Made by a program: the position numbers and the translations under genes
Notes under the pieces: generated by a model
The model's database searches: none
What the model was told of the DNA's origin: nothing
Seen by the model: the letters and a program-made list of their open reading frames with translations, nothing else
Shown: positions 3,635 to 13,581 of the stretch, piece after piece
Position numbering within the stretch: the first letter of the stretch is position 1
Layout: every line of letters starts with the position of its first letter
DNA from: a virus
Reading direction: 5' to 3' (one strand)
Virus record (IMG/VR): IMGVR_UViG_3300037264_000412
Span: 1 to 27,063 of that record
Length of the DNA stretch: 27,063 bases

Positions 3635-6600
3635 ATGCCGACTCTTCTTCGTGGCGGATATGCCCCGCCCGGTGTCTACACTCAGACCTTCTTTGGAGTT
3701 CCCCCGACCCCGACCCCGATTCCCAACCGGCTCCCTGTGTTCATTGGGACTGGTACGGAGATCCTTACACGGTCGAATCTCCCGGTCGTGCGCGGTAGCT
3801 CCAGCACCATCGACCAACAGGTCGTTGACGAGGATGAGTCAGGTCGTGCGGTTGTGAGCGTAGCCCCGAGTGGGCTTGTCACCCTTGGAAACTTCGATGG
3901 GGTGCTCACGAAGTTCCAGGTACGTAACCTCCCGATCGTTTCGGGTGATGGAACGGGAACCCCGGCGGTAGACACGAGCGCCGTTTCGTGTCGGATCAAT
4001 GGCTTTCCGGTCGTGGTTCTTGGTCTCGACGCAGCAAAGGGCATCGTTGAGATTTCGGTCGCCCCACAACCAACCGACGTAGTTCGCTGCACCTACTTCT
4101 TCGACCGTACGGACACCTTGACGACTGACAATGTGTCAGATCAGGTCACCCCGGAAGCGGCGGTCATCGATGGTCTCGCGGGTCAGAACTTCGCGTTCGT
4201 CGCAGGGGCGAACGATGTGTTCTCTCTCTCGGTGGATGGTCTTGCGTATGTGAACATCATCATGCCCACCTCTGCCCCATCAGTGAGTGGGGCAGTCGTT
4301 ACAGCGACCATCAATGGAAGCACAGGCATCGGTTCTCTTGTCGCCACCACCTATGTGAACAACCTTGGTCAGGTCTGCATTCGTCTCTCGGCAGACAAGT
4401 CAATCATCATTGGGACCGGTACGGCAAACACAACGCTCGGATTCACTCCGAACACGGCGACCACTCGTAACCGGATCTTCTATACGTTCCAGGGTCCGAT
4501 CGTAGATGGAACCAATGGCGGTGTCACCACTACTGACCCCTCTCGCATCGTTGTTCTCGTGGATGGGGTTCAGGTCATTCCGACGGCGGTCAATGGTGCG
4601 GCTCGGTCGTTCACTCTGCCGTTCGCTCCGGCCATGGGTTCTACGGTCACGGTCCGTTATTACTTCAACACCTGGCAAGACACGTTCGACTACCTTGCCA
4701 ACATCGGTATCACGGAGATCACCCGGGTCGCTCTCACTCCAGAGGGCAGCACGGCAGGTACGTTCATTCAGGGTGTGAGTTACGTCCTCAAGGACGACGT
4801 GATCGTATGGGGTACGGCTGTTCTTGTATCGCCCGCAACGCACACAGAGGGTGGGGTAACGCTTGGTACATCGCAGATCCAAGCGATGCTGGTGGATAAC
4901 CAGGTTTTCCTCGCTTCCTGTGCAGCAACTGTGGATAACACCGGACCTGTTGCGGTCGAGAGTCGCACGGTGTTCCAGCTTCCACATCAACCCACGACGG
5001 GAAATGGTCGCGGAAATCCGCTCGGTTCGACTCTGTACCAGACGGTCTCTAATGGGAGAATCGATCTCCCAACGAACCGCCCTGATCTCGTCACGGCGTA
5101 CTGGGGATTCGGTATCCTGGATGCGCTTAATCGTGGTCCAGTGACGGTTCTCAAGGTGGATAGCACCACCTCGCAGATCACTCTCGGTGCAAGCGTACCT
5201 GAAGGTGCGAGTGTCTACGCAACGTTCTACTACAACACGCTCGTCGATCAGGCGAACATCGGTTCGAGCCGTGCTTACATGCTGACGTGCGTGACGGCTG
5301 GTCCTGGTGGGATCGGCACGTACGCTCTCACCAGTGGTTCAGGTGCATCACTCTTTGGAGTGAGCCTCACTGGCAAGGGAACCGACCTTACGACAGTAGA
5401 CGTGATGTTCCCGTCCGGTTCGGAATTCTTCCCCGATGCTCGCATCGAAGGTGCTTCTCCGGTCGAAGAGACTGTCACAGTCGAGTTCGCTACGTCGGAT
5501 GTAACTCCGGCTCGATTCACGAACCTCGGTCCCGGTCCCTACTACACTATCAACAACACTTCGGATCGTCTCCGAGTCACGTTTGATGGTGTTCCGGCAA
5601 GCACGGGTCTTGCTGCTGGTATTGACCTTTCCTCTCCCACGGGAGGCACACGTTCGGGTGCCTTCGCACATCTCCTTGGTGAGGAAATCAAGTACACGGC
5701 AGCTTCTGGTGAGACCACCTATGATCTCACTTCCGGCGTAGATGACGCTATCAACCTTGTTGTGGATAGGGTTTCACTAGCAGCAGCGACGGGCACTATC
5801 GCAGGCGCAACGGCTGCCGACTTCGTGTCGGCTATCAACGTCGCAGCCGTGCTCGCAGGCAATGAACCCTTCTACGATGGGGCAGGGACCTTCACGGCCT
5901 TCACCGTCACAGCGGGTGAGTATGATCGGCTGACCCTGCACTACAGAGGTGATGTCAGCGGTCCTTCGGGCAATCAGGTGATCACTCTCACGCCTGGCCT
6001 CTACGTCTCGGTGGGCGCACTCGTCACTGAGATTAACACGCAACTCGCAATCATCAACGGTGTAGGCGGTTTGAATGGTTCGGTCTTGTGTTCAGCGCTC
6101 GCGTCGGGAAGTCTTCGGTTCACACTCACTCTGGATCCGCTCGCCCCAGATGCTTCCGGTTACTTGGAGTTCATCACGGATGGTACTCCGGCTCAGGACT
6201 TCGCCATCGTAGCAGGCATCGATACGGATGCGGCATCCAATGGTGATCAGACCAAGCTTTACAATGGTCCAATCGCTCGTCGCTACACGGTTGCAACCAC
6301 TGCGGGTCGTCTTCCCTACGACCGCATCTTGCTTCGTAACCGCATCTTCCCCGGTGGAAACTCGATCTCCTACGTATCGGCTCTCGCTCAGTCTGGTATC
6401 ACTCTTCAGGGTGGCACAGGCACAGTGAAGTCCGGTCTTCTCAATGGTGAGACTGCTGAGGCAGTGTACGGAGCGAACGTCAAGGACCCCACGATCATCG
6501 CCTACACGGGATGGACGGGCGGACAAGTGCCGACGGGTACCTATGGTGATGCACGTGACGGGCAGCCCAACGTCACCTTCTTCGATGGAACAGATCCGTC

Positions 6601-8599
6601 CAATCCTGCCAACAACGTCATGACGTTCACGGCGGGCGGCGGTCTCGTGACTGTGACTTTCGTGGCTTCGATTTCTGGTACGGACACGGCTCTAGGCCCC
6701 GTTTCAGTGGCGGGTTCGGTTCTCGGACAGATCAATGCAGCCATCGTGGCAGCCGGTCTTACCGCAGTCGTTGCTGTTCGCCAAGAGGGTGCGGCTATCC
6801 GTCTCGTCGGTGGCGGAGTTGGTCCTGCGGCAACCCTAGTCATTGGAGCGGGCAGCGCGAATGACACTCTTGGTTTCGCTGAGGACGATTCGGCGGCTCC
6901 CGTTCCGGTCTCTACACGCCAGTTCGTGTCGGCACTCATGGGCCATGCCCAGGCAGCGGGTGCCTTTGCGACCGCGATGCTCTCCTATGCGGCTCCTGAT
7001 CCGCTCTTCTTTGCGGGTCGTGCGCTTGCTGGGATCCAGAAGGATTCGACAGGCAACGTCTTCCTCTACTTCCAGAGCCTGACGCTTGGTGTCGGATCGA
7101 GCATCGACTTCAACAACGCGACCTCGGATAACGCTCTCGTGACGGGAACCCTGCTTCTCATCACGTCAGCCGACGGGGCCTCTGGTGAAGCGGCTATCAA
7201 CGGTTTCTTCGTCACTTCGTCGAACCCTTCCCTTGGGTCGGGTTCGGCCAACACCTCTGTGTTCAACTCGGGCGTCGGTCAGGACGGCGTAGTCGGTCAG
7301 ACTTACGTAGATGACGTAACGGGTTTGACTTTCACGATCTTGCCTCGCTCGGGTGCGGTTCCCTACCCGACTGGCGTGAATGCGACGATCACCTTCCGAG
7401 TGAGCAAGACCTTCACGACAGACGGGAACATCCCGACTCTAGCGATCCCAGGTCTTGAACTCACAGTCACGAACACCTCTTCGGTGGTTGTTGGTGACAC
7501 AGCGTTCATCGAGACCTTCAAGAAGCCCGGTGATGAACCTACCATCGGTCAAATCTACTACGTCAGCTACCTCTTCGAGAAGCAAGACTTCACTCCGAAG
7601 TTCTTCTCTCGCCTCTCTGAGGTTGTGGCAGAGTACGGAGAAGTGAGTCCAGATAACCCACTTTCTCTTGCGGCGTACCTGGCTTTCCTGAATGGGTCGT
7701 CGGTCATCGCTACGTATCAGGTTCGTAAGCAGTCGGGCTCGTCTCAAGCGAGTGAGCAGACGTACCTTGATGCGCTAGTGGATCTCGAAGGAGATTCACT
7801 GCCGGGGAACATCTCTCCGACGGTACTCGTGTTCCTGACTCCAGCCACAGCAACTTTGGCGAAGTTCACGGCCATTCACTGTGACGTGCAGTCGAGCATT
7901 CGCTACCGAGCGGAGCGGACGGCGATCTTTGGCTTCGCGTCTGGCACTCAGCCTTCGCAAGCTCAAGCCATCGCCGTTGCAACGGGCTCAACGCGTGTCC
8001 GGTTTGTTTACCCGGACATCCTCACGCTCACACTCACTGACGTACTCGGGAACTCCAAGTCATACCTCATCGACGGTCGCTACATGGCTGTTGCAGTGGC
8101 AGCTTCGACAACGGCTCCAAGCATCGATGCAGCAACTCCATGGACGGGTCGGTTGCTTTCGGGCTTCACGGCTCTTGCGCGGAGACTCGATGCGGTGGAG
8201 GCGAATCAGGTCGCTTCCAGAGGCGTCACTGTGATCGAGGAACGCTTGCCATTCATGCGAATCCGGCATGGCCTCACTTCGGACATGAGCAATGTCCTGA
8301 CAAAGGTTCCGACGGTCATCCAGATCGCCGACGACATGCAGCGACGCGCTCGGGCGGTACTTGACCAGTTCGTTGGGGTCAAGTTCCTTCCACAGATTCT
8401 TGGACAGATCGAGGGTCAACTCTCTGAGATGTTCAAGCGCGCGGTGCAGGAACAGGTCATCACCTCCTTCACAGGAGTCAGCGTTGTTCTTGATCCTGAG
8501 GATCCCACGGCGACTCTTGTCGAAGCGTTCTACATCCCCGTATTCCCCCTACTTTACATTCAGCTAGTTTTCCGGGTCAGTTCTCAGTCGAATGTATGA
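3635..8599 (+). CDS. Tail sheath protein, greatly enlarged (1654 aa)
   Basis: The sheath surrounds the tail tube and contracts to drive it through the host envelope. The N-terminus has the typical sheath opening (GGYAPPGVYTQ, then PVFIGTGTE). The conserved C-terminal sheath fold occupies about residues 1300-1654: FFSRLSEVVAEYGEVSPDNP near 1320, TPWTGRLLSGFTALARRLD, GVTVIEERLPFMRIRHGLTS, and a closing FYIPVFPLLYIQLVFRVS. Between the two lie roughly 1200 residues of beta-rich, Gly/Thr/Ala-rich insert. Recurring elements there include TLGF after an IG-G-AN turn (near residues 270 and 1075) and aromatic pairs in YYFNTWQDTFDY and TFYYNTLVDQAN. T4 gp18 has 659 residues, so this one is about 2.5 times longer. 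Start: ATG with AGGAG ten bases upstream. No frameshift or stop interrupts the insert. Sheath identity is strong. The role of the inserts is unknown; surface decoration or host contact is a guess. Confidence 0.9.
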   Translation: MPTLLRGGYAPPGVYTQTFFGVPPTPTPIPNRLPVFIGTGTEILTRSNLPVVRGSSSTIDQQVVDEDESGRAVVSVAPSGLVTLGNFDGVLTKFQVRNLPIVSGDGTGTPAVDTSAVSCRINGFPVVVLGLDAAKGIVEISVAPQPTDVVRCTYFFDRTDTLTTDNVSDQVTPEAAVIDGLAGQNFAFVAGANDVFSLSVDGLAYVNIIMPTSAPSVSGAVVTATINGSTGIGSLVATTYVNNLGQVCIRLSADKSIIIGTGTANTTLGFTPNTATTRNRIFYTFQGPIVDGTNGGVTTTDPSRIVVLVDGVQVIPTAVNGAARSFTLPFAPAMGSTVTVRYYFNTWQDTFDYLANIGITEITRVALTPEGSTAGTFIQGVSYVLKDDVIVWGTAVLVSPATHTEGGVTLGTSQIQAMLVDNQVFLASCAATVDNTGPVAVESRTVFQLPHQPTTGNGRGNPLGSTLYQTVSNGRIDLPTNRPDLVTAYWGFGILDALNRGPVTVLKVDSTTSQITLGASVPEGASVYATFYYNTLVDQANIGSSRAYMLTCVTAGPGGIGTYALTSGSGASLFGVSLTGKGTDLTTVDVMFPSGSEFFPDARIEGASPVEETVTVEFATSDVTPARFTNLGPGPYYTINNTSDRLRVTFDGVPASTGLAAGIDLSSPTGGTRSGAFAHLLGEEIKYTAASGETTYDLTSGVDDAINLVVDRVSLAAATGTIAGATAADFVSAINVAAVLAGNEPFYDGAGTFTAFTVTAGEYDRLTLHYRGDVSGPSGNQVITLTPGLYVSVGALVTEINTQLAIINGVGGLNGSVLCSALASGSLRFTLTLDPLAPDASGYLEFITDGTPAQDFAIVAGIDTDAASNGDQTKLYNGPIARRYTVATTAGRLPYDRILLRNRIFPGGNSISYVSALAQSGITLQGGTGTVKSGLLNGETAEAVYGANVKDPTIIAYTGWTGGQVPTGTYGDARDGQPNVTFFDGTDPSNPANNVMTFTAGGGLVTVTFVASISGTDTALGPVSVAGSVLGQINAAIVAAGLTAVVAVRQEGAAIRLVGGGVGPAATLVIGAGSANDTLGFAEDDSAAPVPVSTRQFVSALMGHAQAAGAFATAMLSYAAPDPLFFAGRALAGIQKDSTGNVFLYFQSLTLGVGSSIDFNNATSDNALVTGTLLLITSADGASGEAAINGFFVTSSNPSLGSGSANTSVFNSGVGQDGVVGQTYVDDVTGLTFTILPRSGAVPYPTGVNATITFRVSKTFTTDGNIPTLAIPGLELTVTNTSSVVVGDTAFIETFKKPGDEPTIGQIYYVSYLFEKQDFTPKFFSRLSEVVAEYGEVSPDNPLSLAAYLAFLNGSSVIATYQVRKQSGSSQASEQTYLDALVDLEGDSLPGNISPTVLVFLTPATATLAKFTAIHCDVQSSIRYRAERTAIFGFASGTQPSQAQAIAVATGSTRVRFVYPDILTLTLTDVLGNSKSYLIDGRYMAVAVAASTTAPSIDAATPWTGRLLSGFTALARRLDAVEANQVASRGVTVIEERLPFMRIRHGLTSDMSNVLTKVPTVIQIADDMQRRARAVLDQFVGVKFLPQILGQIEGQLSEMFKRAVQEQVITSFTGVSVVLDPEDPTATLVEAFYIPVFPLLYIQLVFRVSSQSNV

Positions 8600-9927: not shown

Positions 9928-10896
9928 ATGTCTGACCTACGATCTCAGATTCTCGGGATGATGGCTTCTCGCGTTGCTGCCTCATGGGCAGTAACCGAGA
10001 AGACTGCGGTCATGCCGAATGATCCTCAAATGACGACCTGTCCGACATGCAAGAAGCCATTGGGTCAGCACGATAAGCGTTGTCAGTATTACTCTAGGCC
10101 ACAACGGACCATTCCTGACGCGGAGTTGAAGCGTATCAGGAACAAGAAGAGGGGTTCCCTTTTGAGGGAGGCTGGATACGGACGAGGTTACGGGGGGGAT
10201 CCTCGATGGATCCGAGCCAAATTCCCAGGCAAGGATATCAAGGGCAACTCCTTCGCGAAGGGCGAAGAAGTACTCTATTGGCCTTTGACACGGACTTTCA
10301 TGACTGGACAAGATGCCAAGAATGCTTGGCACCGATTCCAGGCTGAGAAGAGTGACGAAGAAGGGATGTCCTATCTCAGGAGTGGTGCCGCAGACTGTTC
10401 TCCACCCACTTGCTCAGATGGTACATCAGCAGAATACGATGACGGCAAGGATGCTTACGTTTGTCCCTCGACTGGAGAAATAGGACCCAATGGTCCTATC
10501 TGTCGAAGTGCATCACCGGAGAGAGTCGCCTCTCGATTTGCTCTGCACACTGATGATGAGCAACTCGTTGCCATATCTGAAGCTCTCAAGAAGAACAACA
10601 TCCTGAGTCATCTGGTTGATGGGATGGCTTCAAAGGCACGAAAAGAAGGGGTCTCGTTTGGATTTCGCGATGCAAGAGATGCCTTGCGTGCTTGGTATGC
10701 AGGAGAGCAGATCACGAAGGGCTCTCCAGAGTACCTTAGGAAGCAAGATGTTGCGTGGGGATTTCTGACGTCCACCTCTGGTAAGAAGCTTGTTAGCAAA
10801 CTCACTGATATGGTGGGTTCTGTTCTGAAAACTCGGAACAAGAGTGTAGGGTTCCGAGACATCGCTAGGGCTGTCGATGACTACATGACATTGTAG
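9928..10896 (+). CDS. Phage protein of unknown function with VASR motifs (322 aa)
   Basis: No family is recognised. A possible zinc-binding patch, CPTCKKPLGQHDKRC, is at about 38-52. A basic Gly-rich stretch follows (RNKKRGSLLREAGYGRGYGG, 71-90), then a cysteine-containing middle (C157, C162, C179, C192). The motif RVASRF at 199-204 separates this from a helical C-terminal domain that may contain two related units (GFRDARDALRAWY near 245-257 and GFRDIARAVDDYM near 308-320). A similar MASRVAASW is at 12-20. The first ATG is at 9928, six bases after the endonuclease stop, with only a weak ribosome site. ATG at 9958, giving MMASRVAASW, is an alternative. It was presumably next to the sheath gene before the endonuclease arrived, so a virion or assembly role is possible but unproven. 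Confidence 0.65.
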   Translation: MSDLRSQILGMMASRVAASWAVTEKTAVMPNDPQMTTCPTCKKPLGQHDKRCQYYSRPQRTIPDAELKRIRNKKRGSLLREAGYGRGYGGDPRWIRAKFPGKDIKGNSFAKGEEVLYWPLTRTFMTGQDAKNAWHRFQAEKSDEEGMSYLRSGAADCSPPTCSDGTSAEYDDGKDAYVCPSTGEIGPNGPICRSASPERVASRFALHTDDEQLVAISEALKKNNILSHLVDGMASKARKEGVSFGFRDARDALRAWYAGEQITKGSPEYLRKQDVAWGFLTSTSGKKLVSKLTDMVGSVLKTRNKSVGFRDIARAVDDYMTL

Positions 10897-10937
10897 GGCT
10901 TGTCGATGTGCAAACGCCTATCCAGAAGGAAGCACAG

Positions 10938-11285
10938 ATGTCAGACCACAAGTTACGTTCAAAGCTCATTCATCTGGCTAATACGAAGCCAGAACTTAGG
11001 GAACACCTTCTTCCTATTCTGAAAGAAGCAAGTGATCCTGTACTTGAGAATGTCGGATCACCACCCAAGTACAAAATGGCAATCAAAGTTCATGCCTTAC
11101 GTCTTCTTGAGGCTCCACCAGATCAAGAGTATGCGGCTTTTGGTGCGTTGCTCAGGGGTTGTTCTGATTACGCCAAAAAGGGACTTGGGATACCTAACCT
11201 TTGGCGTATTCTGACAAAGGCGGAAGATTTCTTGGAAAAGAACTACATTTTACCGAGCGTTCGGGACATCCTTCCCAAGGGGTGA
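10938..11285 (+). CDS. Small helical phage protein (115 aa)
   Basis: The start is set at the ATG at 10938 because AAGGAAG at 10926-10932 lies just before it. The in-frame GTG at 10908 has no ribosome site. The N-terminus LRSKLIHLANTKPELREHLL continues into PILKEA, an amphipathic helix pair with a regular leucine spacing. I have the impression this segment is shared by several proteins of large phages, but that is memory, not a search result. The rest (YAAFGALLRGCSDYAKKGLG, then IPNLWRILTKAEDFLEKNY) is also mostly helical. No catalytic motif is visible. Function unknown. Confidence 0.65.
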   Translation: MSDHKLRSKLIHLANTKPELREHLLPILKEASDPVLENVGSPPKYKMAIKVHALRLLEAPPDQEYAAFGALLRGCSDYAKKGLGIPNLWRILTKAEDFLEKNYILPSVRDILPKG

Positions 11286-11321: not shown

Positions 11322-12314
11322 TTGGAAACTTCTCACGCATCTGCGGTTCGAATCGCTTCTAGATTCCTGGAGGCAACTTCAAAACGTAACGCTTGTATCA
11401 TCGCTACTGGAAATTGGGGGGACAAGCGAGTCCTTCTCAAGAACCGAGACCGTAACTACAACCCCAAAGTCAGCATTGTTCGTGAAGTTCTGGAAGGCGT
11501 AGAAGTCGCCTACATGACTGACGAAGTGACGGACTGGAACGAGGGGCTTAACGAGCACGGGATCGGCATCGTCAACTCGGCACTCTCCGTTGGACGAGAC
11601 GAGGCAGAGAAGAAACTCGTTTCGATCGGAAAAAAGTCAAAGGACGGAGTGCGAATTCTAGAAGCTCTGTCATGTAAGACACTGGCTGAGGCGATCAAGA
11701 GCGCCAAGAATTCCCACGGCGGGATCAAGGGTCACACCTTCATTTCGAGCCCTGATGGTGTCGTAGCAATTGAGCAGACCAGCAAGCACGAGTGCAAAGT
11801 CAAGACGCTAGATCCCGATTCCATCTACGTGAGGACGAATCACGGGATCGAGTATGAGGATGCCGGATACACAGAGGGGAAGAAGTACATCTCTTCGATA
11901 GCTCGGCGAAACAAGGCCAAAGAGATCTTGAAAGACGTGAAGTCTCCAGAAGGTGTAGCTCCCGCACTCATGGCTGGACGGTCAAAGGACAGGCATGATC
12001 CAAACAGCGTGATTCGTGACACGAAGGACATGTCTACGACCTCTCAGACGATCCTCAATCTGACAGACTTGGAGTTGATCCTGTACGTGATCCCAAAAAA
12101 GTCCACTTACGAAGGGCTCACGAACAAGCTTCCGAAGGGTCAGAAGCCAAAGATTAAGGTGAGAGTGTTCTCGTACCTGGATGATGGATCTGAGGTTGTA
12201 GAACTAGATCCTGAGACCGGGAAGAAGAAAGCAGACCCAAAGAAGGTCGCTTCTCAGTTTCTAGGAGACAACATCCTGGTTTTCAGTTACGGCAGCAACA
12301 ATCCTTTCATCTGA
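11322..12314 (+). CDS. Ntn-hydrolase (C45/C69-like amidohydrolase or acyltransferase), joined to a broken GGCT domain
   Basis: Ntn hydrolases cut amide bonds with an N-terminal Cys exposed by self-cleavage. The candidate nucleophile is Cys25 (NACIIATGNWG), which would release a 24-residue propeptide containing VRIASRFLEA. Supporting motifs are KNRDRNY at 40-46, GLNEHGIGIVNSAL at 75-88 and TNHG near 171-174, in the order seen in the acyl-CoA:6-aminopenicillanate acyltransferase (C45) and related families. The start is TTG at 11322; an in-frame stop at 11310-11312 excludes anything earlier. The last residues, NILVFSYGSNNP, are not part of the hydrolase. They are the opening of a GGCT domain whose remainder continues in other frames to 12738. 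The intact gene would then have been a two-domain enzyme of about 472 residues. Substrate unknown. The fold call is moderate and rests on motifs only. Confidence 0.65.
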   Translation: METSHASAVRIASRFLEATSKRNACIIATGNWGDKRVLLKNRDRNYNPKVSIVREVLEGVEVAYMTDEVTDWNEGLNEHGIGIVNSALSVGRDEAEKKLVSIGKKSKDGVRILEALSCKTLAEAIKSAKNSHGGIKGHTFISSPDGVVAIEQTSKHECKVKTLDPDSIYVRTNHGIEYEDAGYTEGKKYISSIARRNKAKEILKDVKSPEGVAPALMAGRSKDRHDPNSVIRDTKDMSTTSQTILNLTDLELILYVIPKKSTYEGLTNKLPKGQKPKIKVRVFSYLDDGSEVVELDPETGKKKADPKKVASQFLGDNILVFSYGSNNPFI

Positions 12315-12738
12315 GCAAGATTCTTGGTCATGATGTAGAGACAATCGGAGCTTTTGCGCAGGGATATGAACGTGTCTTTCGAGGGTATTCAGAACGATGG
12401 GGAGGAGGAACTGCGTCCTTGTCCCCCTCGAAGGATAGGGTTGTCTATGGAATTGTCGCAAGAGTACCCCCTGGCGATTTGAAGAAGCTGGACCAGATTG
12501 AAGGATTTGCCGAGGGAGCTACCGTAGAGACAAGATTGACGTCACTCTTGCGAATGGAGACCCAGTCCCAGTATTTGCCTACGTCGCAACGAGTCCTGAG
12601 TCCAATCCTCCTAGTCCTCGTTACTTTGCGGAGGTATCTGACACGATTCGATCGTACAGAGAAGGTTTCTGGGGGGATTGGGTCGAGGAGGATGCGCTCG
12701 CTCGGCTTTCGTTTCCAGCCTATAGGACTGAGTTGTAG
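12270..12738 (+). pseudogene. Gamma-glutamylcyclotransferase (GGCT)-like domain split over three frames
   Basis: Three frames read in succession give one coherent GGCT-like domain. Frame A (to about 12305) gives ILVFSYGSNNP with the hallmark YGSN. Frame B (about 12308-12520) gives HLSKILGHDVETIGAFAQG, YERVFRGYSERWGGGTASL, RVVYGIVARVP and LDQIEGFAEGA. The EG of LDQIEG is the usual catalytic glutamate region. Frame C (12520-12738) gives YRRDKIDVTLANGDPVPVFA, YVATSPESNPPSPRYFAEV and a TAG stop at 12736-12738. Each joint is a -1 step: inserting one T near 12306 and one near 12520 restores a single frame. Neither site is a classical slippery heptamer. Either the gene has decayed in two places or the assembly carries two single-base deletions. 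GGCT enzymes release gamma-glutamyl groups as 5-oxoproline. Confidence 0.75.
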
Positions 12739-12768: not shown

Positions 12769-13581
12769 ATGGCGAATTCTGACATTAACCCATCAAATGG
12801 CGTACAAGGTTCGTCATACCTTTACGATTTTGGAACCTCGCCAAACACCCGTGTTGCCGTCAGCCAGAAGGTTCGACTCCTTGCTCCGGCCTACGGGTCG
12901 GAAACGAAGGCCCTCTTCCAGATGGGCGTAGTTACGTCGTTCTCTCCGACTCAGAGCCGGAACATGGACACGGTACGAGGTATCGGTTACGGGGACATGA
13001 TCGCCGAACTAGTCCCTTCCGTGACAGAACCCGTCACCGGTACGATTGAACGTGCTCTCCTGTACCTCGCGAACCTGTGGCAGGCGACTGGCTACGCGGG
13101 TGGTGTGGACGGCCCGGTTCGGTCGCTCGCCCATCACCGCTGGCCCTTCGACATTGAGCACCAGTTGGTGTTCTCGACGCTTGCAGACTCAGACCTTGGT
13201 TTCGCAAACGTTGGTCACTCTGGAGCGCAACGGAACTTCGGTGGTGGCGTCCAAAAGGTCAGTTTCCCCCAGGTCAGCGTCCCGACCCCGGCTCCGCCTA
13301 CCTACGGGACATCTCAGGGTCACTCGGCCATCATCACGATGTACGAGGCAGCCTGGTTCAACTCATGGTCTGCGACCTACACGCAGGACGCTGGTCAGAT
13401 CCTGGAATCTGGTGACGTGACGGTCTCTGACGTTCACGATTTCTCCAGTCTTTACGGGGAGTTCCTTCCGAGCGGGAACGACCCCTCCGTTGATCAACTG
13501 GGGTCGATCCGCTTCGGTGGTGCGGCTGAGATTGGAACTCTTACGGGTGCCGGTGCTGTTGGTGGTACCGGGATTCGTTAA
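12769..13581 (+). CDS. Tail tube protein
   Basis: A 270-residue protein expected to form the inner tube of the contractile tail, stacking as hexameric rings inside the sheath and around the tape measure. The N-terminus is MANSDINPSNGVQGSSYLYD. The body is beta-rich (FQMGVVTSFSPTQSRNMDTV, RGIGYGDMIAELVPSVTEPV, YEAAWFNSWSATYT), with a Gly/Ala-rich flexible end (GTLTGAGAVGGTGIR). These are the look of tube proteins of large myoviruses, and the place between sheath and chaperone/tape measure is the usual one. The ribosome site CGGAGAC lies 8-14 bases before the ATG. The gene and its homing-endonuclease neighbour are followed by an intrinsic terminator at 14407, which would end the tube transcript. 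Confidence 0.75.
   Translation: MANSDINPSNGVQGSSYLYDFGTSPNTRVAVSQKVRLLAPAYGSETKALFQMGVVTSFSPTQSRNMDTVRGIGYGDMIAELVPSVTEPVTGTIERALLYLANLWQATGYAGGVDGPVRSLAHHRWPFDIEHQLVFSTLADSDLGFANVGHSGAQRNFGGGVQKVSFPQVSVPTPAPPTYGTSQGHSAIITMYEAAWFNSWSATYTQDAGQILESGDVTVSDVHDFSSLYGEFLPSGNDPSVDQLGSIRFGGAAEIGTLTGAGAVGGTGIR

Follow-up and report, generated by a model that had tools for sequence, protein, structure and literature searches.

A gamma-glutamyl cyclotransferase (GGCT) domain divided among three reading frames was found behind an intact Ntn hydrolase in the window, i.e., the whole stretch of DNA analyzed here (IMG/VR virus record IMGVR_UViG_3300037264_000412, positions 1 to 27,063; 27,063 bases). Each of the two frame breaks corresponds to one missing base, and we put it at slightly better than an even chance that the two losses represent real, very recent breakage of the GGCT half of a two-domain fusion gene. 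The hydrolase and GGCT region comprised the following features:

11322..12314 (+), intact hydrolase ORF with a TTG start (330 aa), covering an AAT/C45-type Ntn hydrolase, the linker and the first GGCT residues
11394..11396 (+), codon of Cys25, the predicted N-terminal nucleophile after self-cleavage, assigned from its invariance in alignments and a fold match
12174..12275 (+), linker of ~35 residues from the Ntn domain to GGCT, delimited by Ntn relatives that end near residue 284
12276..12305 (+), GGCT piece 1, hydrolase frame, with the glycine-rich YGSN loop
12306..12307 (+), joint 1, two bases left of one codon, placed by gap-free alignment to the phage homologues L219 and L218
12308..12517 (+), GGCT piece 2, second frame, HLSKILG...LDQIEGFAEG (Pfam GGACT, 19.4 bits alone)
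12500-12502 (+), codon of the catalytic-type Glu (LDQIEG) in piece 2, aligned to Glu98 of human GGCT
12518..12519 (+), joint 2, two bases left of one codon, placed by gap-free alignment to L219 and by codon usage
12520..12738 (+), GGCT piece 3, third frame, YRRDKIDVTL..., with TAG at 12736-12738 (AIG2_2, 15.3 bits alone)

The hydrolase ORF passed via the linker into NILVFSYGSNNP and then reached TGA at 12312-12314, and the GGCT domain as a whole extended over 12276-12735. The continuous reading frame of an intact GGCT gene was thus interrupted by two -1 breaks. The original prediction had proposed that one domain is coherent here only across three frames, beginning with YGSNNP (12288-12305) in the hydrolase frame, and had left it to a profile search whether a GGCT match would be obtained. 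The three-piece reading, scored with X at the joints, matched Pfam GGACT (PF06094) with 47.8 bits (cut-off, 22.8 bits; E 2.6e-12; positions 1-106 of 120). The single pieces remained below the GGACT cut-off, with 19.4 bits for piece 2 and only a weak AIG2_2 match of 15.3 bits for piece 3. With a home-built GGCT profile, constructed from bacterial homologues and two phage homologues with the window excluded, the composite scored 113.9 bits versus 56.9 and 30.3 bits for pieces 2 and 3 alone. The composite also matched human GGCT (E 1e-7). The YGSN motif was present at 12288, and the Glu of LDQIEG was aligned with Glu98 of human GGCT, for which a catalytic role has been described (PMC7022552). Further, a codon-usage model trained on the other window genes favored the hydrolase, second and third frames in this order, switching at the same joints. 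The GGCT identity of the three-frame domain was therefore confirmed at the level of sequence, and the three-frame structure of the domain stood as predicted.

These results also bear on the reading in which each frame would be a gene of its own, separate from or overlapping the others, and the resemblance to GGCT a coincidence. A 107-aa ORF does begin at TTG 12419, but the profile scores and the gap-free alignment span one domain, and no relative with such genes was found. The GGCT profile results refuted this reading, which we regard as extremely improbable.

Two stand-alone phage GGCT genes were detected by pattern search (L219:784-1227 and L218:4054-4503), both of which were continuous. The L219 protein was 44% identical to the window GGCT domain, and their alignment ran through both joints free of gaps, a full codon of L219 facing the two bases left in the window; this indicates that each joint lacks exactly one base and nothing more, in line with the two single-base -1 steps proposed earlier. 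The original prediction had also pointed to related phages as a source of either fused or separate genes. What would have spoken against it, separate genes in relatives, was observed only by half: Ntn and GGCT were separate in the two phage homologues and fused in none found, and no Ntn relative was detected in the L218 and L219 records, but GGCT itself was one continuous frame in both. Among annotated phages, the L219 query found phage G gp514, and tblastn with the three-piece GGCT gave no match. Searches of 284 and 299 genomes gave bacterial GGCT matches in 37 and 9 of them, respectively; those aligned were continuous, and one match of the 284-genome search had a TAG inside the aligned range.

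The two base losses were 212 bases apart, with joint 1 located within a T run and joint 2 outside any homopolymer. The two steps share the -1 direction, and at joint 1 one can imagine a slip of a single codon, from TTC to TTT; both features would fit expression of the whole fused protein by two programmed -1 ribosomal frameshifts. However, an X XXY YYZ slippery heptamer was absent from both joints, as had been noted in the claim that neither is a normal slippery site, and the codons at joint 2 suggest that no re-pairing of an Ala tRNA would occur there. The RNA downstream of the joints was no more stably folded than its shuffled versions (z -0.17 and 0.67; folds without pseudoknots), and the single-frame homologues, both from phages (L218, L219) and from the aligned bacteria, need no shift. 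Programmed -1 frameshifting was rejected on the lack of a heptamer, of a stimulatory RNA structure and of a frameshift in relatives, and is considered very improbable. The same very low likelihood applies to a phage bifunctional Ntn amidase-GGCT enzyme whose second domain would be reached by two unconventional -1 recoding events.

For the first half of the gene, the predicted Ntn hydrolase identity was borne out by a match to Pfam AAT (PF03417; 32.9 bits; cut-off, 23.2) and by the predicted fold; the match to NCBIfam C45_proenzyme (NF040521) reached 43.8 bits, below its cut-off of 85. A fold comparison was needed because a sequence-profile search of the Ntn family in PDB yielded chance flavodoxin matches only. 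The AlphaFold model of the hydrolase (pLDDT 80.8) matched 3gvz (Z 19.1 over 220 residues, rmsd 3.2 A), the isopenicillin N acyltransferase precursor 2x1c (Z 18.1; Foldseek E 1e-9), NAAA (Z ~18) and bile salt hydrolases (Z 16-17). Cys25 was invariant in 15- and 23-member alignments, and in the comparison with solved structures of penicillin V acylases and bile salt hydrolases, the first aligned residue was residue 25, which fell on their Cys1/Cys2. The model accordingly has the Ntn fold with a predicted N-terminal Cys nucleophile, of the AAT/C45 type. Self-cleavage before Cys25 is presumed from what is known of the family, and an amide is the safest assumption for the substrate.

About 300 viral IMG/VR stretches encoded relatives of the hydrolase, of which 80 were fetched (L015-L094). 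The stand-alone Ntn proteins, from Chryseobacterium phages MA9V-1/2 and IMG/VR, were about 40-54% identical to the window hydrolase over residues 23-282, and nearly all of them ended at window residue ~284, without linker or GGCT. In the 80 relatives, no GGCT was fused to the Ntn gene or located within ~5 kb of it. As far as seen, the Ntn-GGCT fusion is thus specific to this locus; it is a variant that rests on one sequence and was seen nowhere else among the relatives searched. In the inspected examples, which come from large phages, the neighbors of the Ntn gene were late structural genes, according to gene names read from sequence. One Ntn relative (L071:1629-3155) carried a different C-terminal extension of ~208 residues (...NPGPKWKAEYWSCRMW...), indicating that the Ntn family has more than one fusion partner. 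No PHROG match was obtained for the window hydrolase, and one weak match was found among 15 family members. With the patterns used, no Ntn relatives were detected in plasmids or bacterial genomes. Searching viral and bacterial contigs for the pattern VFRGxxxxWGGG led to nothing beyond unrelated proteins and chance matches. A limited literature search on phage Ntn/AAT and on jumbo-phage GGCT turned up no relevant publication.

The 27 kb metagenomic window is a piece of a large tailed phage, and the locus sits in its tail module, for which the following features were recorded:

3635..8599 (+), conserved structural gene upstream of the hydrolase, with full-length in-frame relatives in L004-L009
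12769..13581 (+), conserved structural gene downstream of the GGCT remnant, with 92% identical relatives in L004-L007
76-900, 2023-2790, 13626-14375 and 17090-18331 (-), the four mobile-type genes (GIY-YIG/NUMOD3, TnpB/IS605 OrfB)

The product of 3635-8599 is probably tail sheath-like and that of 12769-13581 tail tube-like; no PHROG match was found for either. The stretch between these two conserved genes was accessory, and the same spot measured only ~550 bases to 3 kb in the closest relatives. No hydrolase or GGCT gene was present between the tail genes in the closest tail-module relatives, nor was an Ntn or GGCT gene found elsewhere in the records of these relatives. The sequence comparison thus identifies the hydrolase locus as a variable spot between tail genes, with related phages that are without the gene. 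Of the four genes listed last, all inside the tail module, three are homing endonuclease-like genes of the GIY-YIG/NUMOD3 kind and one is a TnpB/IS605 OrfB gene.

In addition, a VASRFL-type tag-like motif occurred three times in the window, at the hydrolase N-terminus (11349), in the linker (12240), where it reads VASQFL, and in ORF 9928-10896 (10522). In a 199 kb relative (the contig of L007), four copies were found versus 0.65 expected in shuffled proteins, mostly close to protein ends. The product of 10908-11285 in the window had the N-terminal motif LRSKLIHLANTKPELREHLLPILK, and a similar start (LRSKLIRLAH..PELR..LLPLLK) was seen in three proteins encoded by the related 199 kb contig. This shared N-terminus is possibly a targeting or packaging tag.

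The differences between the window GGCT domain and L219 were distributed over the three codon positions as 23/22/50 in piece 2 and 28/21/43 in piece 3. The dominance of the third position suggests that the divergence built up while these frames were translated and, together with the retained YGSN loop and Glu, that the breaks are young in any case. The earlier proposal that the lesions are either recent or sequence errors is consistent with this undecayed state of the domain. In the second of these cases, the phage would carry an intact Ntn-GGCT fusion, and both base losses would be sequencing or assembly errors in a low-coverage stretch. We consider this credible, at somewhat less than an even chance: apart from the breaks, the GGCT domain is undecayed and retains the catalytic-type Glu, the YGSN loop and the family motifs, joint 1 lies in a T run, and the window itself comes from a metagenome as a 27 kb fragment. 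However, random error would require two hits only 212 bases apart in the same domain, for which simple arithmetic gives a chance of about 2% in ~23 kb of coding DNA, and the position of joint 2 outside a homopolymer also argues against error. All other window genes with relatives were in frame over their whole aligned length, and no further frameshifts pointing to poor sequence were found in them. Since the other testable conserved genes are in frame, the losses look more like decay of a dispensable domain than random error; both cluster in one accessory domain that the Ntn family does without. Against decay, no substitution or stop marks further erosion, which is odd for two successive lesions, and another contig of this phage with the lesions was not found, an exact search across joint 2 having returned no other copy from a collection in which very near records may be lacking. 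On this evidence, we lean toward real loss over error.

Recent breakage would imply an ancestral gene encoding an AAT/C45 Ntn amidase/acyltransferase, a linker of ~35 residues and a gamma-glutamyl cyclotransferase; that this gene was once a true fusion is suggested by the frame, which is open through the linker. The first loss may have released the GGCT domain from selection, and the second would have come before substitutions could erode the domain. The present product would be the 330-residue hydrolase ending at TGA 12312, with the linker and a dozen former GGCT residues attached. It most likely folds, self-cleaves in front of Cys25 and works alone, since nearly all relatives end naturally at residue ~284, and the GGCT activity, by which 5-oxoproline is released from gamma-glutamyl substrates, has probably been lost. 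On this history, a large phage would have acquired an accessory enzyme fusion at a variable spot flanked by two conserved tail genes and would later have given up part of it. Should the natural gene be an intact fusion, a single phage protein would combine amidase with gamma-glutamyl chemistry, and this pairing would give a clue to the substrate. Taken as a broken gene, the locus is ordinary; the half that remains intact is a member of a widespread family of phage Ntn hydrolases.

Among known systems, the hydrolase half resembles the AAT/C45 enzymes, i.e., isopenicillin N acyltransferase, NAAA and bile salt hydrolase/penicillin V acylase, in the shared profile, the predicted Ntn fold and the Cys with which the catalytic domain begins. 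It differs from the solved AAT/C45 structures in its low identity to them (about 9-19%), and its phage family is found in structural-gene neighborhoods. The second half resembles the GGCT family (PF06094; PHROG 2520; Bacillus phage G gp514) in the YGSN loop, the LDxxEG motif with the catalytic-type Glu and the contiguous profile coverage. In contrast to the phage and bacterial GGCTs inspected, which occupy one frame and of which none was seen fused to this hydrolase, the window GGCT is spread over three frames and lies behind an Ntn hydrolase.
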